From Antedon mediterranea (taxonomy: Eukaryota > Echinodermata > Crinoidea > Comatulida > Antedonidae): DNA of 64,000 nt. Shown piece after piece: positions 18,441 through 64,000 of this stretch (the stretch's first letter is position 1; each line of letters starts with the position of its first letter). The notes beneath the pieces were generated by a model, which was given only the letters and a program-made list of their open reading frames with translations, was not told the DNA's origin and ran no database searches. A program made the position numbers and the translations under genes. The stretch covers positions 8,246,001-8,310,000 of the forward strand of contig NC_092672.1 of NCBI RefSeq assembly GCF_964355755.1, in the 5' to 3' direction.

Positions 18441-18448
18441 CTTTAATT

Positions 18449-34009: not shown

Positions 34010-37000
34010 TTGTGAGAAAAACGGCGGATTGTTACTGGGATTCACTTGGTGGGATTATACTAGGGTACCTCGTTAGTCGTCCAGTATAGGTTAGAGTTGG
34101 ACCACTGGTCCCGTTTACTCAGCCCTCATCTTTTAAATTTCAGTATAACTCAATTACGATTGTTAATATATAGTGAAATTTGATATTGTAATTGTGAGAA
34201 AACGGCGGATTGTTCCGGGAAGTCACTTGGTGGGATTATACTAGGGTACCTCCTTAGTCGCCCAGTATAAGTTAGAGTAGGACCACTGGTCCCGTTTACT
34301 CAGCCCTCATCTTTTAAATTTGAATGTAACCCAATTACGATTTTTAAAATATAGTGAAATTTGAAACTGTATCTGTGCAAAAACGGCGGATTGTTCCTGG
34401 GCATCACTTGGCGGGATTATACTAGGGTACCTCCTTAGTCGTCCAGTATAAGTTAGAGTGGGACCACTGGTCCCGTTTACTCAGCCCTCATCTTTTAAAT
34501 CTGAGTGTAACTCAATTACGATTTTAATATTGTTAAATTTGAAACTGTATTTGTGAGAAAATGGCGGATTGTTCCTGGCAGTCACTTGGTGGGATTATAC
34601 TAGGGTACCCCCTTAGTCGTCCAGTATAAGTTAGAGTGGGACCACTAGTCCCGTTTACTCAGCCCTCATCTTTAAATATTGAGTGTAACTCAATCAATTT
34701 TTAAAATATAGTTAAATTTGAAACTGTATTTGTGAGAAAATTGCGGATTGTTCCTGGGAGTCACTTGGTGGGATTATACCAGGGTACCTCCTTAGTCGTC
34801 CAGTATAAGTTAGAGTTGGACCACTGGTCCCGTTTACTCAGCCCTCATCTTTAAAATTTGAGTGTAACTCAATTACGATTAATATTTTAAAATATAGTGA
34901 AATTTGATACTGTATTTGTGAGAAAATGGCGGATTGTTCCTGGGAGTCACTTGGTGGGATTATACTAGGGTACCCCCTTAGTCGTCCAGTATAAGTTAGA
35001 GTGGGACCACTGGTCCCGTTTACTCAGCCCTCATCTTTAAAATTTGAGTGTAACTCATTTACGATTTTTAAAATATAGTGAAATTTGAAACTGTATTTGT
35101 GAGAAAACGGCGGATTGTTCCTGGGAGTCACTTGGTGGGATTATACTAGGTACCTCCTTAGTTGTCCAGTATAAGTTAAAGTGGGACCACTGGTCCCGTT
35201 TACTCAGCCCTCATCTTTAACGTTTGAGTGTAACTCAATTACGATTAATATTTTAAAATATAGTGAAATTTGATACTGTATTAGTGAGAAAATGGAGGAT
35301 TGTTCCTGGGAGTCACTTGGTGGGATTATACTAGGGTACCTCCTTAGTTGTCCAGTTTAAGTTAGAGTGGGACCACTGGTCCCGTTTACTCAGCCCTTAT
35401 CTTTAAAATTTGAGTGTAACTCAATTACGATTAATATTTTAAAATATAGTGAAATTTGATACTGTATTTGTGAGAAAATGGCGTATTGTTCCTGGGAGTC
35501 ACTTGGTGGGATTATACTAGGGTACCCCTTTAGTCGTCCAGTGTAAGATAGAATGGGACCACTGGTCTCGTTTACTCAGCCCTCATCTTTAAAATTTGAG
35601 TGTAACTCATTTACGATTTTTAAAATATAGTGAAATTTGAAACTGTATTTGTGAGAAAACGGCGGATTGTTCCTGAGAGTCACATGGTGGGATTATACTA
35701 GGGTACGTCCTTAGTCGTCCAGTAAAAGTTAGAGTGCGACCACTGGTCCCGTTTACTCAGCCCTCATCTTTTAAATTTGAGTGTAACTCAATTACGATAA
35801 CATTTTTTAAATATAGTGAAAATTGATACTATATTTGTGAGATAATGGCGGATTGTTCCTGGGAGTCACTTGGTGGGATTATACTAGGGTACCTCCTTAG
35901 TTGTCCAGTATAAGTTAGAGTGGGACCACTGGTCCCGTTTACTCAGCCCTCATCTTTAACATTTGAGTGTAACTCAATTACGATTAATATTTTAAAATAT
36001 AGTGAAATTTGATACTGTATTAGTGAGAAAATGGCGGATTGTTCCTGGGAGTCACTTGGTGGGATTATACTAGGGTACCTCCTTAGTTGTCCAGTTTAAG
36101 TTAGAGTGGGACCACTGGTCCCGTTTACTCAGCCCTTATCTTTAAAATTTGAGTGTAACTCAATTACGATTAATATTTTAAAATATAGTGAAATTTGATA
36201 CTGTATTTGTGAGAAAATGGCGGATTGTTCCTGGGAGTCACTTGGTGGGATTAAACTAGGGTACCCCCTCAGTCGTCCAGTATAAGTTAGAATGGGACCA
36301 CTGGTCCCGTTTACTCAGCCCTCATCTTTAAAATTTGAGTGTAACTCATTTACGATTTTTAAAATATAGTGAAATTTGAAACTGTATTTGTGAGAAAACG
36401 GCGGATTGTTCCTGAGAGTCACTTGGTGGGATTATACTAGGGTACACACTAAGTTGTCCAGTATAAGTTAGAGTGGTACCACTGGTCCCGTTTACTCAGC
36501 CCTCATCTTTAAAATTTGAGTGTAACTCATTTACGATTTTTAAAATATAGTGAAATTTGATACTGTATTTGTGAGAAAATGGCGGATTGTTCCTGAGAGT
36601 CACTTGGTGGGATTATACTAGGGAAACTCTTTAATCATCCAGTATAAGTTAGAGTGGGACCACTGGTCCCGTTTACTAAGCCCTCATCTTTTAAATTTGA
36701 GTGTAACTCAATTACGATAACATTTTTAAAATATAGTGAAAATTGATACTGTATTTGTGAGAAAATGGCGGATTGTTCCTGGGAGTCACTTGGTGGGATT
36801 ATACTAAGGTACCTCCTTAGTTGTCCAGTATAAGTTAGAGTGGGACCACTGGTCCCGTTTACTCAGCCCTCATCTTTAACGTTTGAGTGTAACTCAATTA
36901 CGATTAATATTTTAAAATATAGTGAAATTTGATACTGTATTTGTGAGAAAATGGCGGATTTTTCCTGAGAGTCACTTGGTAGGATTATACTAGGGTACCC

Positions 37001-40000
37001 CCTTAGTCGTCCAGTATAAGTTAGAGTGGGACCACTGGTCCCGTTTACTCAGCCCTCATCTTTAAAATTTAAGTGTAACTCAATTACGATTAATATTTTA
37101 AAATATAGTGAAATTTGATACTGTATTTGTGAGAAAATGGCGGATTGTTCCTGGGAGTCACTTGGTGGGATTATACTAGGGTACCCCCTTAGTCGTCCAG
37201 TATAAGTTAGAATGGGACCACTGGTCCCGTTTACTCAGCCCTCATCTTTTAAATTTGAGTGTAACTCATTTACGATTTTTAAAATATAGTGAAATTTGAA
37301 ACTGTATTTGTGAGAAAACGGCGGATTGTTCCTGAGAGTCACTTGGTGGGATTATACTAGGGTACACCCTAAGTCGTCCAGTATAAGTTAGAGTGGGACC
37401 ACTGGTCCCGTTTACTCAGCCCTCATCTTTAAAATTTGAGTGTAACTCATTTACGATTTTTAATATATAGTGAAATTTGATACTGTATTTGTGAGAAAAG
37501 GGCGGATTGTTCCTGAGAGTCACTTGGTGGGATTATACTAGGGAAACTCTTTAATCATCCAGTATAAGTTAGAGTGGGACCACTGGTCCCGTTTACTAAG
37601 CCCTCATCTTTTAAATTTGAGTGTAACTCATTTACGATTTTTAAAATATAGTGAAATTTGAAACTGTATTTGTGAGAAAATGGCGGATTGTTCCTGGGAG
37701 TCACTTGGTGGGATTATACTAGGGTACCCCCTTAGTTGTCTAGTATAAGTTAGAATGGGACCGCTGGTCCCGTTTACTCAGCCCTCTTCTTTAAAATTTG
37801 AGTGTAACTCATTTACGATTTTTAAAATATAGTGAAATTTGATACTGTTATTGTAAGAAAACGGCGGATTGTTCCTGAGAGTCACTTGGTGGGATTATAC
37901 TAGGGTACCTCCTTAGTCGTACAGTAAAAGTTAGAGTGGGACCACTGGTACCGTTTACTCAGCCCTCATCTTTTAAATTTGAGTGTAACTCATTTACGAT
38001 TTTAAAAATATAGTGAAATTTGATACTGTATTTGTGAGAAAATGGCGGATTGTTCCTAGGAGTCACTTGGTGTGATTATACAAGGGTACCTCCTTAGTTG
38101 TCCAGTATAAGTTAGAGTGGGACCACTGGTCCCGTTTACTCAGCCCTCATCTTTAAAATTTGAGTGTAACTCATTTACGATTTTTAAAATATAGTGAAAT
38201 TTGATACTGTATTTGTGAGAAAACGGCGGATTGTTCATGAGAGTCACTTGGTGGGATTATACTAGGGTACCCCCTTAGTCGTCCAGTATAAGTTAGAGTG
38301 GGTCCACTGGTCCCGTTTACTCAGCCATCATCTTTCAAATGTCAGTGTAACTCATTTACGATTTTTAAAATATAGTGAAATTTGATACTGTATTTGTGAG
38401 AAAACGGCGGATTGTTCCTGAGAGTCACTTGGTGGGATTATACTAGGGTGCCTCCTTAGTCGTCCAGTATAAGTTAGAGTGGGACCACTTGTCCCGTTTA
38501 CTCAGCCCTCATCTTTAAAATTTGAGTGTAACTCAATTACGATTAATATTTTAAAATATAGTGAAATTTGATACTGTATTTGTGAGAAAATGGCGGATTG
38601 TTCCTGGGAGTCACTTGGTGGGATTATACTAGGGTACCCCCTTAGTCGTCCAGTATAAGGTAGAATGGCACCACTGGTCCCGTTTACTCAGCCCTCATCT
38701 TTAAAATTTGAGTGTAACTTATTTACGATTTTTAAAATATAGTGAAATTTGAAACTGTATTTTTGAGAAAACGGCGGATTGTTCCTGAGACTCACTTGGT
38801 GGGATTATACTAGGGTACACCCTAAGTTGTCCAGTATAAGTTAGAGTGGGACCACTGGTCCCGTTTACTCAGCCCTCATCTTTAAAATTTGAGTGTAACT
38901 CATTTACGATTTTTAAAATATAGTGAAATTTGATACTGTATTTGTGAGAAAACGGCGGATTGTTCATGAGAGTCACTTGGTGGGATTATACTAGGGTACC
39001 CCCTTAGTCGTCCAGTATAAGTTAGAGTGGGTCCACTGGTCCCGTTTACTCAGCCATCATCTTTCAAATGTCAGTGTAACTCATTTACGATTTTTAAAAT
39101 ATAGTGAAATTTGATACTGTATTTGTGAGAAAACGGCGGATTGTTCCTGAGAGTCACTTGGTGGGATTATACTAGGGTGCCTCCTTAGTCGTCCAGTATA
39201 AGTTAGAGTGGGACCACTTGTCCCGTTTACTCAGCCCTCATCTTTAAAATTTGAGTGTAACTCAATTACGATTAATATTTTAAAATATAGTGAAATTTGA
39301 TACTGTATTTGTGAGAAAATGGCGGATTGTTCCTGGGAGTCACTTGGTGGGATTATACTAGGGTACCCCCTTAGTCGTCCAGTATAAGGTAGAATGGCAC
39401 CACTGGTCCCGTTTACTCAGCCCTCATCTTTAAAATTTGAGTGTAACTTATTTACGATTTTTAAAATATAGTGAAATTTGATACTGTATTTGTGAGAAAA
39501 GGGCGGATTGTTCCTGAGAGTCACTTGGTGGGATTATACTAGGGAAACTCTTTAATCATCCAGTATAAGTTAGAGTGGGACCACTGGTCCCGTTTACTAA
39601 GCCCTCATCTTTTAAATTTGAGTGTAACTCAATTACGATAACATTTTTAAAATATAGTGAAAATTGATACTGTATTTGTGAGAAAATGGCGGATTGTTCC
39701 TGGGAGTCACTTGGTGGGATTATACTAAGGTACCTCCTTAGTTGTCCAGTATAAGTTAGAGTGGGACCACTGGTCCCGTTTACTCAGCCCTCATCTTTAA
39801 CGTTTGAGTGTAACTCAATTACGATTAATATTTTAAAATATAGTGAAATTTGATACTGTATTTGTGATAAAATGGCGGATTGTTCCTGGGAGTCACTTGG
39901 TAGGATTATACTAGGGTACCCCCTTAGTCGTCCAGTATAAGTTAGAGTGGGACCACTTGTCCCGTTTACTCAGCCCTCATCTTAAAAATTTAAGTGTAAC

Positions 40001-43000
40001 TCAATTACGATTAATATTTTAAAATATAGTGAAATTTGATACTGTATTTGTGAGAAAATGGCGGATTGTTCCTGGGATTCACTTGGTGGGATTATACTAG
40101 GGTACACCCTTAGTCGTCCAGTATAAGTTAGAATGGGACCACTGGTCCCGTTTACTCAGCCCTCATCTTTAAAATTTAAGTGTAACTCATTTACGATTTT
40201 TAAAATATAGTGAAATTTGAAACTGTATTTGTGAGAAAACGGCGGATTGTTCCTGAGAGTCACTTGGTGGGATTATACTAGGGTACACCCTAAGTCGTCC
40301 AGTATAAGTTAGAGTGGGACCACTGGTTCCGTTTACTCAGCCCTCATCTTTAAAATTTGAGTGTAACTCATTTACGATTTTTAAAATATAGTGAAATTTG
40401 ATACTGTATTTGTGAGAAAAGGGCGGATTGTTCCTGAGAGTCACATGGTGGGATTATACTAGGGAAACTCTTTAATCATCCAGTATAAGTTAGAGTGGGA
40501 CCACTGGTTCCGTTTACTAAGCCCTCATCTTTTAAATTTGAGTGTAACTCAATTACGATAACATTTTTAAAATATAGTGAAAATTGATACTGTATTTGTG
40601 AGAAAATGGCGGATTGTTCCTGGGAGTCACTTGGTGGGATTATACTAAGGTACCTCCTTAGTTGTCCAGTATAAGTTAGAGTGGGACCACTGGTCCCGTT
40701 TACTCAGCCCTCATCTTTACCGTTTGAGTGTAACTCAATTACGATTAATATTTTAAAATATAGTGAAATTTGATACTGTATTTGTGAGAAAATGGCGGAT
40801 TGTTCCTGGGAGTCACTTGGTAGGATTATACTAGGGTACCCCCTTAGTCGTCCAGTATAAGTTAGAGTGAGACCACTGGTCCCGTTTACTCAGCCCTCAT
40901 CTTTAAAATTTGAGTGTAACTCATTTACGATTTTTAAAATATAGTGAAATTTGAAACTGTATTTGTGAGAAAACGGCGGATTGTTCCTGAGAGTCACTTG
41001 GTGGGATTATACTAGGGTACACCCTAAGTCGTCCAGTATAAGTTAGAGTGGGACCACTGGTCCCGTTTACTCAGCCCTCATCTTTAAAATTTGAGTGTAA
41101 CTCATTTACGATTTTTAAAATATAGTGAAATTTGATACTGTATTTGTGAGAAAAGGGCGGATTGTTCCTGAGAGTCGCATGGTGGGATTATACTAGGGAA
41201 ACTCTTTAATCATCCAGTATAAGTTAGAGTGGGACCACTGGTCCCGTTTACTAAGCCCTCATCTTTTAAATTTGAGTGTAACTCAATTACGATAACATTT
41301 TTAAAATATAGTAAAAATTGATACTGTATTTGTGAGAAAATGGCGGATTGTTCCTGGGAGTCACTTGGTGGGATTATACTAAGGTACCTCCTTAGTTGTC
41401 CAGTATAAGTTAGAGTGGGACCACTGGTCCCGTTTACTCAGCCCTCATCTTTAACGTTTGAGTGTAACTCAATTACGATTAATATTTTAAAATATAGTGA
41501 AATTTGATACTGTATTTGTGAGAAAATGGCGGATTGTTCCTGGGAGTCACTTGGTAGGATTATACTAGTGTACCCCCTTAGTCGTCCAGTATAAGTTAGA
41601 GTGAGACCACTGGTCCCGTTTACTCAGCCCTCATCTTTAAATTTTGAGTGTAACTCATTTACGATTTTTAAAATATAGTGAAATTTGAAACTGTATTTGT
41701 GAGAAAACGGCGGATTGTTCCTGAGAGTCACTTGGTGGGATTATACTAGGGTACACCCTAAGTCGTCCAGTATAAGTTAGAGTGGGACCACTCGTCCCGT
41801 TTACTCAGCCCTCATCTTTAAAATTTGAGTGTAACTCATTTACGATTTTTAAAAAATAGTGAAATTTGATACTGTATTTGTGAGAAAACGGCGGATTGTT
41901 CCTGAGAGTAACTTGGTGGGATTATACTAGGGAACCTCTTTAATCATCCAGTATAAGTTAGAGTGGGACCACTGGTCCCGTTTACTCAGCCCTCATCTTT
42001 AAAATTTGAGTGTAACTCATTTACGATTTTTAAAATAAAGTGAAATTTGAAACTGTATTTGTGAGAAAACGGCGGATTGTTCCTGGAAGTCACTTGGTGG
42101 GATTATACTAGGGTACCTCCTTAGTTGTCCAGTATAAGTTAGAGTGGGACCACTGGTCCCATTTACTCAGCCCTCATCTTTAACGTTTGAGTGTAACTCA
42201 ATTACGATTAATATTTTAAAATATAGTGAAATTTGATACTGTATTTGTGAGAAAATGGCGGATTGTTCCTGGGAGTCACTTGGTGGGATTATACTAGGGC
42301 ACCCCCTTAGTTGTCCAGTATAAGTTAGAATGGGACCACTGGTCCCGTTTACTCAGCCCTCTTCTTTAAATTTTGAGTGTAACTCATTTACGATTTTTAA
42401 AATATAGTGAAATTTGAAACTGTATTTGTGAGAAAATGGCGGATTGTTCCTGGGAGTCACTTGGTGGGATTATACTAGGGTACCCCCTTAGATGTCCAGT
42501 ATAAGTTAGAATGGGACCACTGGTCCCGTTTACTCAGCCCTCTTCTTTAAAATTTGAGTGTAACTCATTTACGATTTTTAAAATATAGTGAAATTTGAAA
42601 CTGTATTTGTGAGAAAACGGCGGATTGTTCCTGGGAGTCACATGGTGGGATTATACTAGGGTACATCCTTAGTCGTCCAGTATAAGTTAGAGTGGGACCA
42701 CTGGTCCCGTTTACTAAGCCCTCATCTTTTAAATTTGAGCGTAACTCAATTACGATAACATTTTTAAAATATAGTGAAAATTGATACTGTATTTGTGAGA
42801 AAATGGCGGATTGTTCCTGGGAGTCACTTGGTGTGATTATACTAAGGTACCTCCTTAGTTGTCCAGTATAAGTTAGAGTGGGACCACTGGTCCCGTTTAC
42901 TCAGCCCTCATCTTTAACCTTTGAGTGTAACTCAATTACGATTAATATTTTAAAATATAGTGAAATTTGATACTGTATTTGTGAGAAAATGGCGGATTGT

Positions 43001-43860
43001 TCCTGGGAGTCACTTGGTAGGATTATACTAGGGTACCCCCTTAGTCGTCCAGTATAAGTTAGAGTGGGACCACTGGTCCCGTTTACTCAGCCCTCATCTT
43101 TAAAATTTGAGTGTAACTCATTTACGATTTTTAAAATATAGTGAAATTTGAAACTGTATTTGTGAGAAAACGGCGGATTGTTCCTGAGAGTCACTTGGTG
43201 GGATTATACTAGGGTACACCCTAAGTTGTCCAGTATAAGTTAGAGTGGGACCACTGGTCCCGTTTACTCAGCCCTCATCTTTAAAATTTGAGTGTAACTC
43301 ATTTACGATTTTTAAAAAATAGTAAAATTTGATACTGTATTTGTGAGAAAACGGCGGATTGTTCCCGAGAGTCACTTGGTGGGATTATACTAGGGAACCT
43401 CTTTAATCATCCAGTATAAGTTAGAGTGGGACCACTGGTCCCGTTTACTCAGCCCTCATCTTTAAAATTTGAGTGTAACTCAATTACGATAAAAATTTTT
43501 AAATATAGTGAAAATTGATACTGTATTTGTGAGAAAATGGCGGATTGTTCCTGGGAGTCACTTGGTGGGATTATACTAGGGTACCTCCTTAGTTGTCCAG
43601 TATAAGTTAGAGTGGGACCACTGGTCCCGTTTACTCAGCCCTCATCTTTTAAATTTGAGTGTAACTCAATTACAATTTTTAAAATATAGTTAAATTTGAA
43701 ACTGTATTTGTGAGAAAACGGCGGATTGTTCCTGGGAGTTAATTGGTGGGATTATACTAGGGTACCTCCTTAGTTGTCCAGTATAAGTTAGAGTAGGACC
43801 ACTGGTCCGTTTACTTAGGCCTCATCTAAAATTTGAGTGGCTCAATTATGATTTTTTAAT
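34010..43860 (+). repeat. ~180-bp satellite array, left arm of giant element
   Basis: Units of about 178 or 186 bases, roughly 54 copies by length. Each runs GTGAGAAAATGGCGGATTGT, TCACTTGGTGGGATTATACT, AGTCGTCCAGTATAAGTTAG, GGGACCACTGGTCCC, TTTACTCAGCCCTCATC, GAGTGTAACTCA. The two length classes differ by an AATATT-containing insertion in the AT-rich part. Higher-order structure is present: blocks near 38231 and 38960 are about 729 bases apart and nearly identical, and a GAAAAGGGCGG/GGGAAACTCTTTAATC variant recurs at 37500, 39501, 40421 and 41155. No coding capacity. Confidence 0.97.
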
Positions 43861-44639
43861 ATAGTTATATAGCACAGTGAAGTTTTTTTTAAATTAAATA
43901 TATTGTTAATCGCAAAAGAATGAATAATTTCTTGGTAATCTAGCATTTTTTGTATACAAGGATCATATAAAATACGTTCCCGGTTATACGCTTAACACGC
44001 TGTGTTTTTTAACACATTTACGGCCGCTATCTTGTTGGATCCCCCTCCTTTTGGAATCACCTTTGAGTCTGAAGTACCCCCTCTAGCCTTCGGCTTATTA
44101 CATCTCTCTGGATGCCACAGATTGTACATTAGGCGGCACCAGATAGATAACTTTGTGAGGCCAGTTTTTACTTTATTTACATAAATTATTCCATTTTCCA
44201 TGAAACAACCCTTATGATTAAAAACAGATACTTCGAGCCGGACCGCAAAATTTAAACCATTTTAAATCAAAATAGAAGGCGTTATACCTATGTTTTTCCA
44301 GAGCCATATATAGCAATATTTTAAGTCAATATGAATATGATTATGAACTGTTTACGTCGTTTTTTTTTTATCTTTTCAGAACCTTCGTATAGAAAGTGAC
44401 CGAATAACATAATGCAGTGCTGCAATACGTTGTTCGTTGGTTAATACACTTGCAATACTAAGCCTGCTTGTTGGTTCGATGGGAAAATAACTATTAGCGA
44501 AAAATAATAATTAGAATGGACACCGTAAACTGAAGTTTCTATCGAAACGATTTGTAGGCCTACAATATGTTATATTATACGTATACTTGTTAAATAAAAG
44601 TTGTATAAAAGAGTCTATTTTGTAAAATGACGTAATATT

Positions 44640-45010
44640 TTGAAATTCTATGTAATTGTATAAATAAGAGTATCTTATAAAAATATCGATAAATGTTTTA
44701 TAGGTTTTTAATAGAATTTCTAAAGAGTTTTCAACACTTTTAGAAACTTTATATATAAGAAATTATATCAAAAGTCTATAAATTCTTTAGAAATATCTAA
44801 AGATATATCTATAAAATTTCTATAAACTTCTATAATTCTATACACAATCTATAACAGCTCTATTGAAAAGTCTATCGGAATTTTATAGAATATATATAGA
44901 AGATATAATAACTGTATATAAAAAGCTTTAGAAACTCTAAAAAAATTCTAAAGATATTAAATATATATAATTTGTGTATATATAGAATATTTATATAGAA
45001 ATTCTATACA
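44640..45010. repeat. AT-rich degenerate simple repeat
   Basis: Many imperfect TCTATAAATT / ATAGAAATTC units in both orientations, able to fold extensively. Confidence 0.6.
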
Positions 45011-45511
45011 CATTTTTTATTTACGGCTAATATCGGACGTTTAAGAGATGGAAAGGAACAAATTTTGGCTTGGATGTGTGATACAGTATAGGTAAAGCCA
45101 GGGAGAAATAACTGTCAGATTTATGTTTATTAGTAGGTAGCAGAAACAAATCTACAGTTTAGACCTTCAAAACATTCATTATTGTCTGAAATCCAATAAT
45201 TGTTTTTTGTTCATCTACTAGCAAAAGACACCTGCCCCAGTGTGGGAGTTGCTTCATAGGGACCATGGTTGCAGTGATTTAATCATAGGTTAAATCCTTC
45301 ACAGAAGAATTCTGTAAATGTATTCATTATATCTCCGAAACCCATCTCAGCTCCTCCTCCCAACCAACATCCACAGACCCTCCTTGAGACAGTTCAAATG
45401 TAATCAATTATAAATCAGAGTAATTTGATATATCATTACCTCTAAATTCCATTATCTCCTAATATATTAGAACTTTTCCCTCCCCCTTCCCACCTGAAAT
45501 GAAACCTTCCT

Positions 45512-45625
45512 TCCTGCGAGTTACAAGAATCTGCGAGTTACAAAACAGATCTGCGAGTTACAAAACAGATATGCGGCAAAATCTGCGAGTTACAACAAAT
45601 CTGTGAGTTACAAAACAAATCTCAC
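45512..45625. repeat. ~19-bp tandem repeat
   Basis: About five units of CTGCGAGTTACAAAACAGAT, with diverged ends. Confidence 0.8.
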
Positions 45626-46507
45626 TCTGTTCATATATGAGATATAAGAAATAAAGAAATTCTCTGCAAACAGTAATAAATCAAAAGTAATTAAGGTGAA
45701 TGGCCTGGTGAGACCAGATTCGACTCCACTAACTACATAGTAATACTGTCCAGACCACACAACATTTCAGCAACTTTTGCCATTAAAATATTAATTTATA
45801 GCTCATATCTACTAGTAGCAGGGTTTTGAAATAGTGGTTACCCTGACTTACCATATAGGACCTAAATATTGTAAAATGAGGTGCTGAAATGAACCTAATG
45901 TCCTATGTTTTGCATTTGAAGGGAAAATGGCTGACAGAACAATATTTTCTAAGTCCAAAATATCTCAACATTTTCTACTGTTGTTACTGTAGGTTAGTGG
46001 TTAAATGTTGTTATGTTACTGGTTAATTAAGTTTTTTACGTTAGTGGTTTAATCAATTAATTAATTAATTAAATTTTTTTAAATGCAAGTCATTCAAAAT
46101 ATAAAAAGTACATTAATTATATTAAAATAAGCAAGTCATCTTATATTTGTTTATAATAATATCCTGGATGTATATAGCGCCTAAGCGCTGTTATAAACTA
46201 ATACGAAAAAAGGGAATTCCAACCATGCCAAAAAAAAAACCAAACCGAAGGGGGATACGCCTTCGTCGCTAACCAGGGATCGGTCGAATTGAATCCCGGT
46301 CAGCACCAGGTGTGTCTCGGTCAACCCGGACTCAGGCGCCTCTTGCCCTACTTAAACTAGATCTAAAACAATCTAGGTGGCATGGTAAAGGAGAAAAAAG
46401 GGGATTAATATGCAAGTAAGTCTTAAGAAGCCCCTAAAAAGAGTCACCGACTGTGCATCTTTAATGTTTGACAGCCTTGACTGAAAAATCCATCATTATG
46501 GTTTGCG

Positions 46508-46577: not shown

Positions 46578-46596
46578 TTTTGCAGATGTAAAAAGG

Positions 46597-52700: not shown

Positions 52701-55700
52701 CTGCATTCCTCTAAGTTGTAAAGTGAATACAATTATGTTTCATTATCTCGAGTATAAATGGCCCTTCCCATCAAATTCCCATATAAAACATTAACTAATT
52801 ATGTTAATTTTGTTGTCAGGCTGATGACTCTCATCGTCGCCGCCGTCGGCGTTGTGATGGTATCGTAAAAACGAAACGGAAACAAGTTGACTATTTAAAC
52901 ATGAAGGCGTCTTTCTCAAGACATATTACATCAACTACAGATATTACAAGTGCGAGCAGTGAGTCAGTATGGGGTACAATTTTAAAAGAAATAAAATGGT
53001 TTAATACTCAAAACAACAGAAAGTACTTGAAAGTAATATGGCGATCAAACAGAGGCGGTGTACGCGAATACACGGAGCGAAATTGGGAAAATCCTGAAAC
53101 CAATAGTGCACTATATCAACTAGATGTCCAAGAAGAAGAACAGGAATATCAGCAAAATGGAGAAATAGAAGTCCAAACACCTTTGCAGACAGAATTTCGT
53201 CGAAGCAAAAGAAATAGGAAGGTTAAACGATTTTCTGAATGTTGGGAGACCGACACGTTTTGCATATGCCGGCGGGCTTGGAGAGGAGATGCAATTCGTC
53301 CAGCTATACAATGTGACCAGTGCTTGAAATGGTATCATTTCGATTGCATAAACATGCCAGAATATGCTACTGTAGATTTGCTGCATTGCAGATTCTATTG
53401 TGGATTTACAGGGTGCAGTAGCAGACAAAAGATGATCATAAGTGATGTAATTTCTACCTCAAAAAAATCAGAAAGTGACGTAGATGAACACTTAAGTAGA
53501 CCATCTCGCAACACCGATGTCGACAGGGATGAAGTCGAAAATGAATACATGACGTCATTCATGAATGTCCCATTAAAAAGTAAAGAAGAGAGCGATGCCG
53601 ATGAACACTTAAGTAGAGCATCTCGCTATACCGATGGCGACAGGGATAAGGTAGAAAATGAAAGCAAGACGTCATTCATGAATGTCCCATTAAAAAGTGA
53701 AGAAGAGAGCGACGCAGATGAACATTTAAGTACAGCATCTCGCAATACGGATGTCGACAGGGATGAGGTAGAAAATGAGGGAAAGACGTCATTCATGAAT
53801 GTCCCATTAAAAAGTGAAGAAGAGAGCGACGCAGATGAACATTTAAGTACAGCATCTCGAAATACGGATGTCGACAGGGATGAAGTCGAAAATGAAGGCA
53901 AGACGTCATTCATGAATTTCCCATTAAAAAGTAAAGAAGAGAGCGACGCAGATGAACACTTCAGTACAGCATCTCGCTATACCGATGTCGACAGGGATGA
54001 AATCGAAAATGAAGGCAAGACGTCATTCATGAATGTCCCATTAAAAAGTAAAGAAGAGAGCGACGCAGATGAACACTTAAGTAGAGCATCTCGCAATACG
54101 GATGTCGACAGGGATGAGGTAGAAAATGAAGGAAAGACGTCATTCATGAATTTCCCATTAAAAAGTGAAGAAGAGAGCGACGCAGATGAACATTTAAGTA
54201 TAGCATATCGATATACCGATGGCGACAGGGATGAAATCGAAAATGAAGGCAAGACGTCATTCATGAATGTCCCATTAAAAAGTGAAGAAGAGAGCGACGC
54301 AGATGAACACGTCAGTACAGCATCTCGCTATACCGATGTCGACAGGGATGAAATCGAAAATGAAGGCAAGACGTCATTCATGAATGTCCCATTAAAAAGT
54401 AAAGAAGAGAGTGACGCAGATGAGCACTTCAGTACAGCATCTCGCTATACCGATGTCGACAGGGATGAAATCGAAAATGAAGACAAGACGTCATTCATGA
54501 ATGTCCCATTAAAAAGTAAAGAAGAGAGCGACGCAGATGAACACTTCAGTACAGCATCTTGCAATACCGATGTCGACAGGGATGAAGTCGAAAATGAAGA
54601 CATGACGTCATTCATGAGGAATGTACCAATAGAAAAGGCTACTATAGGCAAATGTCTTGGCGAAGAAATCGGAGAACAAGTAATCAAAGAATTCCAAATT
54701 CCAAGAACTGCACATTTTAAGATAACAAAAGAAAAATGGAGCGAAATATGTAAACACCTAAGAGGAAAGTACTTTGAAAAGGGGCAATGGCACGAACAAT
54801 TTATTAAAGGTTTAAAAACATCCAACCCGTACTGCGTCCTTATGATAAGACGACATCGTGTAAGCATACGTAAACGAAGAGCAACTAGTAAACCACTTCT
54901 CACTGTAGATCTGTACTGCAAGTTTGACCACTGCCCCATCACTGCCAAACTGGAACTGGATACGAATTTTAAGGCAAATGTGAGGTACAGTCATGAAATA
55001 GTAATGCATCATTTAGGGGAGCAACATGCTAGACCTATCCGTGGTAGCGAAAGAGAAACATTAAAAGAAGCATTCAGACATGGCATAACTCCTTTAAACG
55101 AATACCTAAAAAGACTTGGTGAAAAAGACGCGACTCACGTAGTTTTGGCAGGCAATGCTGATGATCTTGGTACTAGTAAGCAAACACTTCGACAGGTATC
55201 TCATGAGGCAAATACTTCATGCATACTTCACAGTGACGAGCTTACAAGCCTACACCAAATGAAAAAAAAAATGGAGTCAGAGAGTCCAAACAAAAAAGTG
55301 AAAGGCTTTATACAGTTCATATCTTTATCCCCTACTGTTGTATTTTACTGGACCGAGGCCGGTATTCGCCTATGGCATGATTTGTCCCAGAAAGATGCGG
55401 CAGTAATAGATGCGACAGGCAATGTTGTCCGTTTGTCAGAAGAAAGAAAGAAGTTTTTGTACTATGAGGTATGCATGAGGAGCCCGATAGAAGGAGAATC
55501 TCCGATACCAATAATGGGTATGCTAAGTACAACTCATACAGCTACAATAATACGTTTCTGGATATCAGAATTCAGAAGATGCGAAAAGCTACTTTTTGGA
55601 TATCAGGGTGTTTCTATTCCTCGTCAAATAAATATGGACAGAGCCATGGCCTTTATAATGGCAATCCTATCGGAGTTTAATAACGAGACTGTTAAGGAAT

Positions 55701-58700
55701 TCCTGGATCGTTGTTGGCGGATTGTCACTGGAAATGCATTAGATAATGACATCGAGCGTAAAACTGTCCCTCACGCATGTACTTCACATGTAATGAAAGA
55801 TGTTAAGAAATCATGCAAGAAGCATTATGCGGGAAATATGGACTATGGATTATACTGCTTTAGCACAATTCTTAATGCTGACAAATTGGTAGAGGCTGAA
55901 CAAGCTCTGTTTGATATGGCTGTTGTGTTATATGGGAAAAAACTGACAGTGGAGGTAAAAGAGGCAAGTGAAAGGATATTTGACAGGATCAATTCTCTCT
56001 CGAAGCAAGTTTCTCAAGAGGTGAACAGAGATGTACGTGGGTCGGCTAATGTGACTGTGGAAGAAGATACAGTATCCGGAGTTAACAAGACAGAAGAAGA
56101 GTTTCTTCATTTTGCCACAGGTATTTGTTATTAATTGTAATATACATTCTTAATGTTCTACTGTGGATCCATTGTAAAAGATGGTAAACATCCGTTACAA
56201 TAACCGATAGTTTTATTTTGTTTTTATTGTGTTCGTTTTCATTACTTATATAATTATTATTATAAACACCATCCCTTGTACTAATTGTACGTTGCGACAT
56301 TCTTTGCCTTTAATGACATCTAACATCTTTAACAAATGATAAAAGGAAATTATATAAATCTTCCTAAAAATATTGTCTTGATGATGATTATTGCATGATT
56401 GCATGTTTTATTTTTATTTACGCAATAGCTATAAAAACAAAAACCTTTTTTTCTGTTGTTTAGGTACTTGCTTTGCAAGGTGGGCAAAGCAGACAATTAA
56501 AGGTGCAAGAGAAACTGTAACAGAGGGAGACGAAGCTATTGAAAACAATGCTCGATTTGGACCTAAATTTATGGAGGATATTCAAAAGCTGCTCCTACCA
56601 ACGCTTCCACTTTGGTCCTGTTTAATGCTTGGAAATCTACAGCGGCATGGAAGTTCAACCCCGTACAAAAAATACAAATTTGTGGAAAAAAGATACCCCA
56701 GTAAAACAACAAGTGTACAAGAAGGAAGATTCAATCAATTGAAAACATACATTCTTCAGAACAAATCCCACAGCCGTGTCGATGTGTTCTCGGAAAAATT
56801 GAAAGACACAACAAAGGCGCTGCAGACTTTAGCACTAAAAAACGCTTTGAAAAAGAGGACCAGAAAGGTTAGAGGAAAGAAGACAGTCCTCGTGGAAGAG
56901 AAATGGAATAAGATGCGCAAACAGCCCGACACATTAAGAGACAAAAAATACGGAAAATATCAACAGCGGCCAACAAAACCTTTCAAAGTTACGAAATCGG
57001 ACAAGAAAAGGGCAAGTGAAACGGTGATTGAGGGTAAGCAGAAGAAAAATAAACCCAATAAGGACAACACTTCTTACCTAATTCATGATGTGGATGTTGA
57101 AGTTGGACCAACAGGAACGAAAAAGAAAGAAGAATGTAGGCCTACATCACGTGTACATCATTCACTGAACCTTGAACCAAAATTCATTCCACTTCTAAAC
57201 TTGCACAACAACTGCTGGTTCAATGCCAACGTGCAAGCACTGGTATCGACAGCATCTTTAGACATTCTGTTGAAAGTACCTGACAGTACTTGGAAAAAAC
57301 CCCAAGAAATGAAATTGTTCGAGTTCCTTAAGATCTACAAGACCAACAAATCAATTAAATATAACAATCTTGAACCATTGTTGCGTGTACTTTCGGCTGA
57401 CGGACTTCAGTATGGACAACAAAATGATGCTCATGAATTTATTTCACGCCACATAGGCGTAATGATGTCCACTATTCGGCTTAACAAAATTGAAATTGAA
57501 GAAAATGTAACATGCAACAACTGTGATGACACCAAATCAAATGTTCAAACAATCACGGAGATCTTTGTTCCTGTACTTAACGATTATGATGCAGTCAACA
57601 TGCAAAACGAAGTTTTGAAACTGACAGATCCTACAGAACATGAAGCAATATGTGAAAATTGTGGATGTTTGGGCATGTTTTTAACATGCAAGAAAATGAA
57701 AACTGTTCCAAATGTGTTATTGATTGTAATGCAAAGAAACCAAAGCAGAGGGAAGATGCTGGCGGCTATAGAACCCACAAAAGAGTTATTAATTACACAC
57801 ACGGGTACTGACATTAAGTGTAGGTTCAAATTAAAGTCTGTTATCGTTCACAGAGGTGATACATGTAACACTGGTCACTATGTTACAATGGTACCGGATC
57901 ACTCCAGTGATATGATTAGTTGGGTACTCTGCGATGACCACATCATTGAAAACGCCCGACCACATGATATAGCTGCAGTTTACGACCAAAGCTACATAAT
58001 GTACTACGAGAAAGCAGAAGGAATTGATGAAACTGTCGGCTGTCAATCAGACCAAGAAAAGATGAATACTTCTAAAAGTAACACTGAAGTTATGGAAGCA
58101 ATCAAACGTAACTGTGAAAGTAAACCAAATGAAATAATGCAGAAAATAAACAGAATTGAAATTAGATATGCTGACGTTACAACCCTACTTATCAACAACT
58201 GGCTAAACGACGTCATAGTCAATACATATCTCTGGCTTGTACATACAAATTCAAAACAGCCTGGAAGTATAAACAAGGTGTATCCCTTTCCTACACAATG
58301 GCACCAAAAAGTCACAGGGAGAGGAGAGACATCACTAAGTTCATGGACGAGAAACACGAATCTGCAAAATTTCGACTGGCTGTTATTTCCAATTAGCCAG
58401 AGTGCACATTGGTTTCTCATCGGAATTAACCTCAGGCATCGTACAGTATCGACATTCGATTCATTACAAGGGGTACGAACACGTGAAATGAACTTAGCTC
58501 TGAAAGTAGTAAATGAGGTTATGGAAAAAAGGAGTCCGTTTACAATAAAGGTTATATCTACACCACGACAGCACAACATGGACGACTGTGGGGTGTATTT
58601 GTGCTATTTTGCAAACTACTTAAGCACGGTAGAGGAAGTCGTAGAAATACCAGATATTGATGCGGAAGAATACAGATACAATATGATTCTTGAACTGTAT

Positions 58701-58712
58701 AAAGGCTGTTAA
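46797..58712 (+). CDS. PHD finger-DDE transposase-USP-Ulp1 fusion protein
   Basis: Inferred exons 46797-46826, 52820-56120, 56464-58712 join in phase to 1859 aa. Residues 1-40 are Lys/Arg rich (MVRKKKKVVK, then an Arg run). PHD finger ~158-209: CIC, CDQC, WYHFDC and a final CxxxC-type set. Ten 39-aa acidic repeats follow (~227-617). A CxxxxC...H/H finger (~710-745) resembles FLYWCH/WRKY-GCM1 fingers of Mutator-like transposases. The RNase-H-fold core has D874 (VIDATGN), D950 (NMDRAM), a CTSH motif and candidate E1197 (VQEGRFNQLK). USP domain: Cys1361 (NNCWFNANVQAL), CxxC pairs, His1582 (TGHYVTM), Asp1601 (CDDH). Ulp1/SENP-type domain: WLNDVIVNTY, His1759 (SAHWFL), Asp1776 (FDSLQ), Gln1813 and Cys1819 (QHNMDDCGVYL). 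Catalytic residues look intact in both proteases. I recognise the domains, not a named family. The 10-codon first exon is the least certain part. Confidence 0.8.
47367..49372. mobile_element. Nested foldback element 1, minisatellite arms
   Basis: Left arm 47367-48750 starts GGTTGGTGAGCATCATGCAA and is mostly minisatellite, ending in unique sequence CGCTCCTTCTGTAAAGAG to AACGTAGCCGTATA. A ~400-base AT-rich loop follows. The right arm 49156-49372 is the mirror image (TATACGGCTACG, TACAGGAGGAGCG, minisatellite, CTCACCAACC), with only about 6 repeat units. The arms are thus strongly unequal. No coding capacity. Confidence 0.8.
47380..48672 (+). repeat. AAAATACGCAAAT minisatellite
   Basis: Interleaved 19-, 23- and ~33-base units: CAAAATACGCAAATCATGC, a variant with CTGCTTTGC, and one with TTGAGGGCGCTATGCTTTGC. 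It is open in several frames on both strands because the units lack stops, giving apparent proteins of 70-280 residues that I do not accept as genes. Confidence 0.95.
49373..50190. other. Spacer between nested foldback elements
   Basis: AT-rich, with no gene or clear repeat apart from the first half of a direct repeat at 50081-50155. Confidence 0.5.
50081..50155 (+). repeat. Direct repeat, copy 1 of 2
   Basis: CTTCAATATTTGTGTGTGCA, then ATGACTAAAACAACCATAAA and GTCATTTGGGGTG, followed by a TCTAAAATTTAGATC palindrome. Matches 51912-51985. Confidence 0.8.
50200..50925. mobile_element. Nested foldback element 2, 14-bp repeat arms
   Basis: Left arm (50200-50315) has CATCGATATGAATATTGAAT then a few AAAATGTTTTGAAT units. 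The right arm (50525-50925) has some 25 units of CATTCAAAACATTT then CATTCATATCGATG. The loop of about 200 bases includes a GGATCCA-rich unique part. Confidence 0.75.
51690..51908 (+). repeat. Degenerate TAGTTGTCCTA tandem repeat
   Basis: Roughly ten units of 18-22 bases around GTAGTTGTCCTAGGGG, with variable spacers. Confidence 0.7.
51912..51985 (+). repeat. Direct repeat, copy 2 of 2
   Basis: Same sequence as 50081-50155 with few differences (CTTCAATATTTGTGTGTATA, ATGACTAAAAGAACCATAAA). Confidence 0.8.
51964..52021. repeat. Long hairpin
   Basis: GTCTAAAAAACTCAGATC is mirrored by ATATCTGAGTTTTCTAGAC, with further AGATCT palindromes inside; overlaps the second direct repeat. Confidence 0.75.
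52022..52816. other. AT-rich end of intron 1
   Basis: Nothing recognised before the splice acceptor at 52817-52819. Confidence 0.5.
53468..54638 (+). repeat. Ten in-frame 117-bp coding repeats
   Basis: Each encodes 39 residues built on EESDADEHLSTASRNTDVD followed by RDEVENEGKTSFMNVPLK. The reading frame is kept through all ten; differences are mainly single substitutions (RN/RY, HL/HF/HV, VENE/IENE). The first and last units are the most diverged. Confidence 0.95.
56121..56463 (+). other. Inferred 343-bp intron inside the DDE domain
   Basis: CACAG|GTATTT donor and TTGTTTAG|GTACTT acceptor. Unspliced, translation stops at 56134. Spliced, the phase-1 codon becomes Gly and the frame runs on to the conserved FARWAKQ segment. 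Confidence 0.8.
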
Positions 58713-59393
58713 CAATGCCGTACCATCCCTTATAAGTAAGGTTGACAAAGTTTCACTTGATATTCTTGTTGTTTGGAAGAGAATTCAGATGTTCTTTAAT
58801 ATATTTTTATATAAAAGTGATGTGTTAGATGTGACAAATGTAAGCGTATTTCTTAACATACATTTTTCGTTATGCAAACATTCTAATTTTAATTACAAAG
58901 TGGTACATATTTAGTTGCAAAATCAAAGAACAATTACTTAATTTTAATCACTTAATGCACATTTACCAAAAATACAAGGCAACCATAATTATTATTTACA
59001 AAATGATTTTATAAAGTGTATTTTTGCGATACATTATTATTTTTTTTTTCTTTTAATTCATTACTCTCTTATTTTTGAGAGAGTATTATCGTGTTTCTTC
59101 TTATTTGTTTAATAGTTACGTTACCTTTATCTCTTAATTTTGTATTATGTACCGTATGTGATATACTTTTCAAAGTGAAACTAGTTTGTGTACACATTTT
59201 TACTCCCGTGTGTTGCATAATACATACAATAACTTAAAGTAGGCCTATTGTATGTGACATGATTTTCCCTTAGTATTAAGTGATAATGAATATAGGGTTT
59301 ACCTTCTGTTAACTGAAGGTACATGATTTTCGGAAATTATGTAGGCCTAAACTGCTGGTACTAAAAACGATTTTTTTTTCAATATGTTACTTC

Positions 59394-59399
59394 AATAAA
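59394..59399 (+). promoter_or_regulatory. Poly(A) signal of the transposase gene
   Basis: AATAAA 680 bases after the stop codon and just before the right satellite arm, so the whole transcription unit fits between the arms. Confidence 0.55.
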
Positions 59400-59464
59400 G
59401 ACATTTACAAAACTTGAAGTAAATAAATGTGTTCAATCTCTTATTTTGTCTCTATCCATCTTAG

Positions 59465-62400
59465 ACCAGTAGTTGGAGTCTATTTATACGGAACGACTAG
59501 GTAGTGGACGATAAATGATACATTTTGTTCTACCACTGAAATCGGAGGTTTTCTCACAAATAAAAACGCTCTAACCTATACTGAACGACTAAGTAAACAC
59601 GCATAGTATAGTATAATCCCACCAAGTGAGTAAACGGGACCAGTGGTCGCACTCTAACTTATACTGGACGACTAAGGAGGTACCCTAGTATAATCCCACC
59701 AAGTGACTCTCAGGAACAATCCGCCATTTTCTCACAAATACAGTATCAAATTTCACTATATTTTAAAAATCGTAAATGAGTTACACTCAAATTTTAAAGA
59801 TGAGGGCTGAGTAAACGGGACCAGTGGTCCCACTCTAACTTATACTGGACAACTAAGGAGGTACCCTTGTATAATCCCACCAAGTGACTCCCAGGAACAA
59901 TCCGCCATTTTCTTACAAATACAGTATCAAATTTCACTATATTTTTTAAATCGTAAATGAGTTACACTCAAATTTAAAAGATGAGGGCTGAGTAAACGGT
60001 ACCAGTGGTCTCACTCTAACTTATACTGTACGACTAAGGAGGTACCCTAGTATAATCCCACCAAGTGACTCTCAGGAACAATCCGCCGTTTTCTCACAAA
60101 TACAGTTTCAAATTTCACTATATTTTAAAAATCGTAAATGAGTTACACTCAAATTTTAAAGATGAGGGCTGAGTAAACGGAACCAGTGGTCCCACTCTAA
60201 CTTATACTGGACGACTAAGGGGGTACCCTAGTATAATCCCACCAAGTGACTGCCAGGAACAATCTGCCATTTTCTCACAAATACAGTATCAAATTTCACT
60301 ATATTTTAAAATATTAATCGTAATTGAGTTACACTCAAATTTTAAAGATAAGGGCTGAGTAAACGGGACCAGTAGTCCCACTCTAACTTAAACTGGACAA
60401 CTAAGGAGGTACCCTAGTATAATCCCACCAAGTGATTCCCGGGAACAATCCGCCATTTTCTCACAAATACAGTATCAAATTTCACTATATTTTAAAATAT
60501 TAATCGTAATTGAGTTACACTCAAACGTTAAAGATGAGGGCTGAGTAAACGGGACCAGTGGTCTCACTCTAACTTCTACTGGACAACTAAAGAGGTACCC
60601 TAGTATAATCCCACCAAGTGACTCCCAGGAACAATCCGCCATTTTCTCACAAATACAGTATCAATTTTCACTATATTTTAAATTTTTTTATCGTAATTGA
60701 GTTACACTCAAATTTAAAAGATGAGGGCTGAGTAAACGGAACCAGTGGTCGCACTCTAACTTATACTGGACGACTAAGGACGTACCTTAGTATAATCCCA
60801 CCATGTGACTCCCAGGAACAATCCGCCGTTTTCTCACAAATACAGTATCTAATTTCACTATATTTTTAAAATCGTAAATGAGTTACACTCAAATTTAAAA
60901 GATGAGGGCTGAGTAAACGGGACCAGTGGTCTCACTCTAACTTATACTGGACGACTAAGGAGGTACCCTAGTATAATCCCACCAAGTGACTCCCAGGAAC
61001 AATCCGCCATTTTCTCACAAATACAGTATCAAATTTTACTATATTTTTTAAATCGTAATTGAGTTACACTCAAATTTAAAAGATGAGGGCTGAGTAAACG
61101 GGACAAGTGGTCCCACTCTAACTTATACTGGACGACTAAGGGGGTACCCTAGTATAATCCCACCAAGTGACTCCCAGGAACAATCCGCCATTTTCTCACA
61201 AATACAGTATCAAATTTCACTATATTTTAAAATATTAACCGTAATTGAGTTACACTCAAATTTAAAAGATGAGGCCTGAGTAAACGGAACCAGTGGTCGC
61301 ACTCTAACTTATACTGGACGACTAAGGACGTACCTTAGTATAATCCCACCATGTAACTCCCAGGAACAATCCGCCGTTTTCTCACAAATACAGTATCTAA
61401 TTTCACTATATTTTTAAAATCGTAAATGAGTTACACTCAAATTTTAAAGATGAGGGCTGAGTAAACGGGACCAGTGGTCCCACTCTAACTTATACTGGAC
61501 GACTTAGGGTGTACCCTAGTATAATCCCACCAAGTGACTCTCAGGAACAATCCGCCGTTTTCTCACAAATACAGTTTCAAATTTCACTATATTTTAAAAA
61601 TCGTAAATGAGTTACACTCAAATGTTAAAGATGAGGGCTGAGTAAACGGGACCAGTGGTCCCATTCTAACTTATACTGGACGACTAAGGGGGTACCCTAG
61701 TATAATCCCACCAAGTGACTCCCAGAAACAATCCGCCATTTTCTCACAAATACAGTATCAAATTTCACTATATTTTAAAATATTAATCGTAATTGAGTTA
61801 CACTTAAATTTTAAAGATGAGGGCTGAGTAAACGGGACCAGTGGTCCCACTCTAACTTATACTGGACGACTAAGGGGGTACCCTAGTATAATCCTACCAA
61901 GTGACTCCCAGGAACAATCCGCCATTTTCTCACAAATACAGTATCAAATTTCACTATATTTTAAAATATTAATCGTAATTGAGTTACACTCAAACGTTAA
62001 AGATGAGGGCTGAGTAAACGGGACCAGTGGTCCCACTCTAACTTATACTGGACAACTAAGGAGGTACCTTAGTATAATCCCACCAAGTGACTCCCAGGAA
62101 CAATCCGCCATTTTCTCACAAATACAGTATCAATTTTCACTATATTTTAAAAATGTTATCGTAATTGAGTTACACTAAAATTTAAAAGATGAGGGCTTAG
62201 TAAACGGGACCAGTGGTCCCACTCTAACTTATACTGGATGATTAAAAAGTTTCCCTAGTATAATCCCACCAAGTGACTCTCAGGAACAATCCGCCCTTTT
62301 CTCACAAATACAGTATCAAATTTCACTATATTTTAAAAATCGTAAATGAGATACACTCAAATTTTAAAGATGAGGGCTGAGTAAACGGGACCAGTGGTCC

Positions 62401-64000
62401 CATTCTAACTTATACTGGACGACTAAGGGGGTACCCTAGTATAATCCCACCAAGTGACTCCCAGGAACAATCCGCCATTTTCTCACAAATACAGTATCAA
62501 ATTTCACTATATTTTAAATTATTAATCGTAATTGAGTTACACTCAAATTTTAAAGATGAGGGCTGAGTAAACGGGGCAAGTGGTCCCACTCTAACTTATA
62601 CTGGACGACTAAGGAGGCACCCTAGTATAATCCCACCAAGTGACTCTCAGGAACAATCCGCCGTTTTCTCACAAATACAGTATCAAATTTCACTATATTT
62701 TAAAAATCGTAAATGAGTTACACTGAAATTTGAAAGATGATGGCTGAGTAAACGGGACCAGTGGACCCACTCTAACTTATACTGGACGACTAAGGGGGTA
62801 CCCTAGTATAATCCCACCAAGTGACTCTCATGAACAATCCGCCGTTTTCTCACAAATACAGTATCAAATTTCACTATATTTTAAAAATCGTAAATGAGTT
62901 ACACTCAAATCTTAAAGATGAGGGCTGAGTAAACGGGACCAGTGGTCCCACTCTAACTTATACTGGACAACTAAGGAGGTACCCTTGTATAATCCCACCA
63001 AGTGACTCCCAGGAACAATCCGCCATTTTCTCACAAATACAGTATCAAATTTCACTATATTTTTAAAATCGTAAATGAGTTACACTCAAATTTTAAAGAT
63101 GAGGGCTGAGTAAACGGTACCAGTGGTCCCACTCTAACTTCTACTGTACGACTAAAGAGGTACCCTAGTATAATCCCACCAAGTGACTCTCAGGAACAAT
63201 CCGCCGTTTTCTTACAATAACAGTATCAAATTTCACTATATTTTAAAAATCGTAAATGAGTTACACTCAAATTTAAAAGATGAGGGCTGAGTAAACGGGA
63301 CCAGTGGTCCCACTCTAACTTATACTGGACGACTAAGGAGGTACCCTAGTATAATCCCACCAAGTGACTCCCAGGAACAATCCGCCATTTTTTCACAAAT
63401 ACAGTATCCAATTTCACTATACTTTAAAAATCGTAAATGAGTTACACTCAAATTTTAAAGATGAGGGCTGAGTAAACGGAACCAGTGGTCCCACTCTAAC
63501 TTATACTGGACGACTAAGGGGGTACCCTAGTATAATCCCACCAAGTGACTGCCAGGAACAATCCGCCATTTTCTCACAAATACAGTATCAAATTTCACTA
63601 TATTTTAAAATATTAATCGTAATTGAGTTACACTCAAATTTTAAAGATAAGGGCTGAGTAAACGGGACCAGTGGTCCCACTCTAACTTAAACTGGACAAC
63701 TAAGGAGGTACCCTAGTATAATCCCACCAAGTGACTCCCGGGAACAATCCGCCATTTTCTCACAAATACAGTATCAAATTTCACTATATTTTAAAATATT
63801 AATCGTAATTGAGTTACACTCAAACGTTAAAGATGAGGGCTGAGTAAACGGGACCAGTGGTCCCACTCTAAATTTACCTGGACGACTAAGGGGGTACCCT
63901 AGTATAATCCCACCAAGTGACTCCCAGGAACAATCCGCCATTTTCTCACAAATACAGTATCAATTTTCACTATATTTTAAATTTTTTTATCGTAATTGAG
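59465..64000 (-). repeat. ~180-bp satellite array, right arm (inverted), cut by window end
   Basis: Reverse complement of the 34010-43860 unit, about 24 copies. The innermost unit (59465-59640) is strongly diverged and rearranged. It carries the same variant units as the left arm, including the TTAAAAAGTTTCCCTAG form at about 62240. The array continues past 64000. Confidence 0.97.

Follow-up and report, generated by a model that had tools for sequence, protein, structure and literature searches.

The 64,000-bp stretch of Antedon mediterranea DNA analysed here (the window, C3:8246001-8310000) contains all but the right end of a 33,174-bp DNA transposon whose two inverted arms are arrays of one 181-bp satellite and whose core carries a single large transposase-like gene. 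It probably represents the autonomous form within a family of very large foldback DNA transposons, and this family most likely belongs to the Rehavkus branch of the Mutator-like superfamily. The original prediction had proposed one mobile unit of more than 30 kb at this place, and such a unit could indeed be delimited by mirrored 148-bp termini and a 9-bp target-site duplication.

Boundaries and termini of the element

The assembly searched comprises 354 Mb in 18 contigs, and 10 kb beyond the right edge of the window were also read; positions there are given as window-equivalent. The whole element extends from 33859 to 67032 (right end window-equivalent). Its left arm is a forward-strand tandem array at 34007..43865 (9,859 bp, 54 unit matches in tandem-repeat and BLAST scans), made of monomers mostly of 181 and 186 bp with a dimer period of 367 bp. 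The right arm, in the opposite orientation, occupies 59627..64000 on the reverse strand within the window and goes on to window-equivalent 66884, giving an array of 7,258 bp and about 40 units; a degenerate satellite-like stretch (59487..59626, reverse strand) lies at its inner edge. The two opposite arrays of one satellite described at the outset are thus both present, the outer end of the right one has been found, and this array stops there instead of running on for hundreds of kb as an ordinary satellite might.

Both outer array edges run into one 148-bp inverted repeat, the shared outer terminus that had been sought. Its left copy (33859..34006, forward strand) begins GCTTGTGTCAAGC, and the mirror copy at window-equivalent 66885-67032 differs from it by one mismatch. 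The repeat contains 15-bp subrepeats AAGCCAGCCAACAAT and has no word longer than 7 bp in common with the monomer consensus. Directly outside both termini lies the 9-bp duplication ATGTGCGAG (33850..33858 and window-equivalent 67033-67041), within the 7-10 bp that had been anticipated. The base preceding ATGTGCGAG on the left side equals the last base of the element, so that a 10-bp reading is possible at this locus; the length is set at 9 bp because other copies fix it at that value.

Paired termini across the genome

When the genome was scanned for the opening 29 bases of the terminus with at most two mismatches allowed, 67 termini were detected, and the same pattern written backward matched nowhere. 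Fifty-two of the 67 form 26 head-to-head pairs, the window's included. The units that they enclose have a median length of 13.5 kb and range from 7,500 bp up to the 33,174 bp of the window copy. Within the window unit the pattern matches only the two outer ends, and not the inner array edges. Duplications of 7-9 bp flank all 26 pairs: they are exact over 9 bp in 18, exact over 8 bp in three, have one mismatch in nine in three, and in one have two mismatches in nine, which amounts to an exact 7 bp. The remaining unit, C3:32277395, was at first scored as lacking a duplication. At its left end the first 10 bases of the element are tandemly duplicated, and the exact 9-bp GAAGATCAT lies outside this 10-bp end duplication, bringing the exact 9-bp cases to 19 of 26. 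When left and right flanks were swapped among elements, none of 650 pairings agreed within one mismatch at 8, 9 or 10 bp. A further pair with decayed ends is located at C4:17145035-17160157. Taken together, these ends and duplications show transposition.

A satellite 32-mer that occurs in each of the eight elements read whole has 267 exact matches in the genome; among the 100 of these listed (on C1, C3 and C4), 91 lie by eye inside the 26 pairs and the other nine inside the decayed C4 pair. None of the matches listed is on C2, although the order of the list runs from C1 through C2 to C3. All 100 listed matches therefore fall between paired termini, long arrays outside transposons were not encountered among them, and, as far as listed, the 181-bp unit is not a general satellite.

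Coreless copies, subfamilies and probable turnover of the arms

The whole structure was read in the window element and seven others. The 25 further paired units provide the other loci of this layout that had been sought, although the seven that were read have the arms without the core: each consists of terminus, forward array, reverse array and terminus, with 0-30 bp extra at the turn. The only match to the window core among them is 58 columns in C4:24974957, to the satellite-like inner edge. Their arms are unequal (30 and 10 unit matches in one case, 91 and 58 in another), and across the eight elements measured the arms are inverted tandem repeats of variable number, which is what defines a foldback element. 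The centres of the seven coreless elements are of six kinds; those of C10:11566164 and C4:24974957 are shared (alignment score 182 of 200), and other pairs score 106 or less. As the seven centres are of six kinds, the core has probably been lost repeatedly. C4:24974957 also has three further small inversions: in C4:24974957-24995863 a single forward monomer stands between reverse stretches, three times over, between the main arms, a pattern that suggests local amplification of the palindrome centre. The 31.5-kb unit C7:23903809 carries a nested element within its right terminal repeat, and because this lengthens the unit, its own length is about 16 kb.

The termini fall into two subfamilies, A (17 of the 26 pairs, including the window's) and B (nine), which differ at 13-16 positions of the 148 bp; the outliers are the right end of C7:23903809, which is interrupted, and one end of C5:10024166, which has 22 differences. 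The satellite splits alike, subfamily A (five elements read) having mostly 181- and 186-bp monomers and subfamily B (three) mostly 182- and 179-bp monomers, so terminus and satellite co-segregate in both. A comparison of the left with the right terminus of each element, C7:23903809 left out, gives 35 differences in 3,676 positions, and C5:10024166 accounts for ten of these. Twenty-two pairs have no more than two mismatches over the 9-bp frame, the three 8-bp cases and C3:32277395 being left out, and in these the two copies of the duplication differ at five of 198 positions. From these divergences the insertions appear to be about 1-2% old, and the arms would turn over faster than the termini.

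A comparison of 594 monomers from the eight elements, with ties shared out, places the nearest relative of a monomer in the same arm in 354 cases, in another element of the same subfamily in 184, in the opposite arm in 55, and in the other subfamily in one. On average monomers differ at 21 positions between subfamilies, at 15 between elements of one subfamily, at 14 between the arms of one element and at 13 within an arm. The longest exact run common to the two arms of the window element is 261 bp, and neither arm shares more than 206 bp with any other arm; a run of 258 bp is common to two different elements, C10:24966565 and C7:23903809. The mirrored variants noted in the original prediction are thus borne out only weakly, and most variants are not mirrored. 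Mirrored gene conversion as the main force acting on the arms was dropped, as monomer kinship favours turnover within each arm. A conserved block that could serve as a binding site was also sought; column conservation is rather even, and weakest at positions 151-160, so a role of the monomers as transposase-binding sites is still a guess.

The core and its gene

The 15.8-kb core of the window element (43866..59626) is absent from the seven others. It contains, as had been proposed, one large gene, although this is interrupted by an intron and lies in two open frames (52808-56134 and 56388-58712). Exon 1 runs from the first ATG of its frame to the splice donor (52901..56120), the 343-bp GT-AG intron follows (56121..56463), and exon 2 extends through the stop codon (56464..58714), all on the forward strand; the spliced product has 1822 amino acids and no internal stops. 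TATAAA is found about 150 bp upstream of the first ATG, and AATAAA downstream of the gene at 59394, 59422 and 59559. The TATA box and poly(A) signal of the original prediction are hence present as motifs, though matches so short prove little.

The view of the protein as a transposase fusion holds for its accessory domains, which Pfam recognises, and stays putative for its catalytic core. Near the N-terminus is a PHD finger (PF00628, 53261..53401, E 3.5e-05), just above the Pfam cut-off at 24.2 bits against 24. Between it and the putative core sits a run of 9.8 in-frame 117-bp (39-residue) repeats (53470..54617), and a C..C..H..H stretch that has no library match, and that we take to be a candidate zinc-binding motif, precedes the core (54917..55027). 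Downstream of the core are a ubiquitin-specific protease (USP; Pfam UCH) domain (57192..58007, E 1.7e-20) and a Ulp1/SENP (Peptidase_C48) domain (58197..58700, E 9.8e-19), the latter aligning with SENP1 at the HW, D and DCG positions of the SENP1 active site. All these features are on the forward strand.

The DDE core is suggested by motifs. The positions taken as the catalytic triad are conserved in divergent relatives from the same genome, whose identity is about 26-32%. The putative first Asp (residue 837, 55409..55411), within a DATG motif, is kept in the distant relative L051, where the motif aligns. The putative second Asp (residue 913, 55637..55639) and the putative Glu (residue 1160, 56721..56723, in QEGRF) are invariant in the alignment with L053 and L054, in which the Glu stands in IENWF; the first Asp was not found in these two within the frames aligned. 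By eye, the context of the last Glu is E-x2-F in the window gene and its relatives and E-x2-H in frames of Mutator-like elements (MULEs). A sequence search of the core against the PDB gave nothing usable, rows at E about 0.5 being chance, and among the viral contigs scanned there was no relative.

Protein searches of the genome detect no intact copy of the gene outside the window. The copy closest to it is a degraded one at C4:12.430-12.434 Mb, which is riddled with stops and whose pieces are 41-90% identical. It has no satellite or terminus within the 5 kb read, and this broken copy is the only instance of the gene away from the satellite, a situation that had been named as speaking against the unit. 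Cousins with partly open frames at C2:17.93 Mb and C4:13.58 Mb adjoin tandem arrays whose units measure 142-191 bp and which have opposite orientations at the two loci, and a USP-like frame at C11:19.83 Mb is a distant relative.

The core holds further repeats. A minisatellite, TGCCAAAATACGCAAATCA, occupies 47385-48637, and a short inverted stretch of the same repeat lies at 49230-49355, so that the pair looks like another small foldback structure nested in the core. The segment 44500-45100 has diverged relatives, 66-90% identical by piece, at several places in the genome, which identifies it as one of the other repeats that the core contains.

Relationship to known elements

Drosophila FB (with NOF), sea urchin TU and Arabidopsis FARE all have inverted arms of tandem repeats in variable copy number, with repeats and arms far shorter than those of the window element. 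The original prediction drew its comparison with these three; the closest known element, Rehavkus-1_TC, was not among them.

A survey of Mutator elements lists Rehavkus, from arthropods and annelids, with a PHD finger and a 9-bp duplication; the terminal repeats measure 26-400 bp, and close to the 3′ one lies a minisatellite (PMC6446971). In the window's family the duplication is exactly 9 bp in 19 of 26 units, and the transposase-like protein has a PHD finger. The non-satellite terminal repeat measures 148 bp (the whole inverted arm about 7-10 kb), and a 181-bp array adjoins the terminal repeat at both ends and not at one. The duplications also agree with the 8-11 bp of Mutator-like elements in general (PMC6446971), as 25 of 26 are of 8-9 bp, one-mismatch cases included, and one is of 7 bp. 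Rehavkus-1_TC of Tribolium castaneum is a 9.5-kb element with the 164-bp satellite TCsat23 in its inverted termini (PMC10218199). Judged by its description, it resembles the window element in being a DNA transposon with satellite inside its inverted termini, whereas its arrays mostly have 5 and 8 monomers, against about 54 and 40 in the 33 kb described here. Coreless satellite palindromes of up to 27 kb set the window's family apart from it, and the portions of the Rehavkus accounts consulted do not mention a USP and Ulp1 fusion such as that of the window protein.

Other foldback elements share some of these traits. Tetris of Drosophila virilis has tandem repeats of about 220 bp in its inverted repeats, an outer non-repeat domain and duplications of 8-10 bp, and its repeats also form satellite arrays; in contrast, its arms reach at most 1,735 bp, it is apparently non-autonomous, and its repeats also fill element-free contigs (PMC4079207), whereas here, among the matches listed, the satellite lies between paired termini. 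Tm1 of root-knot nematodes has foldback-like composite ends, mostly 9-bp duplications, and, within a single genome, copies that encode transposase alongside MITE-like and other non-coding ones, but repeats of 13-15 bp and, in one copy, a length of 1,080 bp (PMC3169594). Galileo of Drosophila likewise has long, internally repetitive inverted repeats, in which the repeats have been shown by experiment to be sites bound by the DNA-binding domain of the transposase; it differs in belonging to the P superfamily, in its THAP domain and in arms of roughly 1 kb (PMC3688188). Complete MULEs of arthropods measure 1.4-10.0 kb (PMC13359780). In the parts of the open-licence literature consulted, no foldback element with satellite arms this long was found.

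Alternative explanations

Several results weigh against assigning the window element to Rehavkus as the autonomous member of its family. Neither Pfam nor NCBIfam calls a DDE domain, and PF10551, which matches 36 other places in the genome, does not match this gene. A comparison of the core with two MULE frames of the same genome by hhalign gave a probability of 0.2 of 100, which is not significant, and an AlphaFold2 model of the core (507 amino acids, single sequence) has a mean pLDDT of 38.5 and is unusable. The DDE and superfamily assignments, which draw on motifs, are accordingly weak, structure prediction and MULE profiles having failed. As to the family, the complete structure comes from eight of the 26 units, the placement of the satellite from 100 of the 267 matches of the 32-mer, and the movement of coreless copies in trans is something that we infer. 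Fifteen of the 67 termini remain unpaired within that range of unit lengths at the threshold applied. At two of them, C10:7723784 and C10:8074826, the terminus leads directly into satellite arrays at least 2.6 and 3.2 kb long, and these loci may be truncated copies. The arms of different copies, unlike the termini, are not near-identical, the median best match of a monomer to another element leaving 4 differences in 181. Finally, no empty site was found in the same genome: in a search with joined flanks of the window element each flank matched only itself, and the flanks of the 26 pairs revealed none in the DNA retrieved.

The gene could be a passenger, because it is found in one unit only. 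The mobile unit would then be real, with a gene of another transposon trapped between satellite arms and the family's enzyme encoded elsewhere or lost. One of the eight units read whole has the gene, protein searches reveal no second copy within the 26 pairs, and the connection between protein and termini is putative; moreover, distant relatives with partly open frames exist at C2 and C4, and a USP-like frame on C11. Such an origin is nevertheless unlikely, since no other intact copy was found, the relatives at C2 and C4 also adjoin arrays, and the terminus pattern marks the two outer ends of the unit and none of the inner array edges. The PHD finger and 9-bp duplication, in addition, fit Rehavkus, whose known member has satellite in its inverted termini. 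These two traits could also be the only resemblance to Rehavkus and Mutator of an element from some other DNA-transposon superfamily. Profile methods gave no link of the core to MULEs, and foldback arms do occur in unrelated superfamilies, such as the P superfamily with Galileo (PMC3688188). Set against this are a D-x3-A motif at the second Asp, followed by C-x2-H, which by eye the protein shares with its relatives and with a MULE frame of the same genome, and the listing of the PHD finger and 9-bp duplication together for Rehavkus (PMC6446971), so that a different superfamily is rather doubtful.

Two further explanations dispense with a single coding transposon. In one, an inversion within ordinary satellite produced the inverted array pair and caught the gene between; arrays of one 181-bp unit in opposite orientation, and the two arrays beside unpaired termini, speak for it. 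The exact termini and the 7-9 bp duplications at all 26 paired sites contradict it, as does the position of the satellite between paired termini among the matches listed; the duplications refute it for the paired units, and for the window element we regard it as extremely improbable. In the other, two coreless elements inserted 16 kb apart would behave, or give the impression of behaving, as one mobile unit, much as the transposable element Ising of Drosophila does between foldback elements. Composite foldback units of Drosophila are reported to extend over hundreds of kb (PMC6431247). In the window element a single duplication brackets all 33 kb, a terminus is missing at the inner edges, and each arm has a single orientation, whereas a coreless element is a palindrome, which leaves a composite origin very improbable.

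A possible mechanism of movement

The reading of the element as an autonomous Rehavkus-like foldback transposon suggests how the family might move. The simplest inference is that the encoded protein would be the mover by DDE chemistry, for coreless copies in trans as well. The PHD-DDE-USP-Ulp1 protein would cut the 148-bp ends (at the GCTTGTGTC end) and paste the element into targets with a 9-bp stagger, and the same protein would act on coreless copies, which would supply only the ends. The coreless forms probably arise when the two inverted arms are sealed to each other somewhere within their arrays, following breakage of the core or an unsuccessful repair of the gap left by excision, so that the core is deleted; the differing centres speak for such sealing. 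The arms would lengthen or shrink by exchange or slippage within one arm, and repeated binding of transposase along them, by analogy with Galileo, would offset the cost of their length. The least certain step concerns the PHD, USP and Ulp1 parts, which probably link the protein with chromatin and take off ubiquitin or SUMO, speculatively from chromatin or from repair factors at the element.

Other satellite-armed families

A second giant foldback of about 15.3 kb is nested in C7:23903809-23935298 (element positions about 16114-31446). It has arms of a 97-bp satellite in both orientations, 193-bp repeats in its core, GGCTTAT on both sides and no frame of at least 150 codons. This second family has 53 terminus matches in the genome and many facing pairs, spaced mostly about 9-17 kb apart, with one at 23 kb and one at 73 kb; its two ends, CAGGTATAG... 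and GAGCTATATTG..., are unlike each other. Two more members that were read have 97-bp arrays in both orientations with a 193-bp array between, and their duplications are by eye of 7 bp (CATTTGA and CTGTCTG). In these two copies, the sole frame of at least 120 codons has 211 codons and lies inside a nested structure. The second family is present on C2 (40.9 Mb, about 11.5% of the assembly), which has none of the 67 termini of the window's family. A third foldback structure, C5:6295851-6305076, is nested in one of these two second-family members and has arms of a 101-bp satellite in 39 and 13 copies of opposite orientation. Given this second family and third structure, satellite-armed giants may be common in the genome.

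Significance

It is conceivable, though we hold it only tentatively, that giant foldbacks, through their arms, are the main vehicle by which satellite has spread in this genome (at least three arm satellites, with 181-, 97- and 101-bp units, in inverted pairs of about 1-16 kb), that arm-only palindromes behave as self-standing mobile satellites, and that the USP and SUMO proteases fused to the transposase shield these giants, prone to form hairpins, from SUMO- or ubiquitin-dependent silencing or help their replication. Whether satellites originate inside transposons, and by what route they spread, has long been debated, mostly on the evidence of short stretches of repeats. Here one genome presents a series with exact ends, comprising one intact coding element, coreless palindromes and two subfamilies whose termini and satellite differ together. 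Insertion of the transposon type can thus bring inverted satellite, nearly pure over 7-27 kb and presumably difficult to replicate, to new sites, and a single candidate protein can be named that may account for the family's movement.

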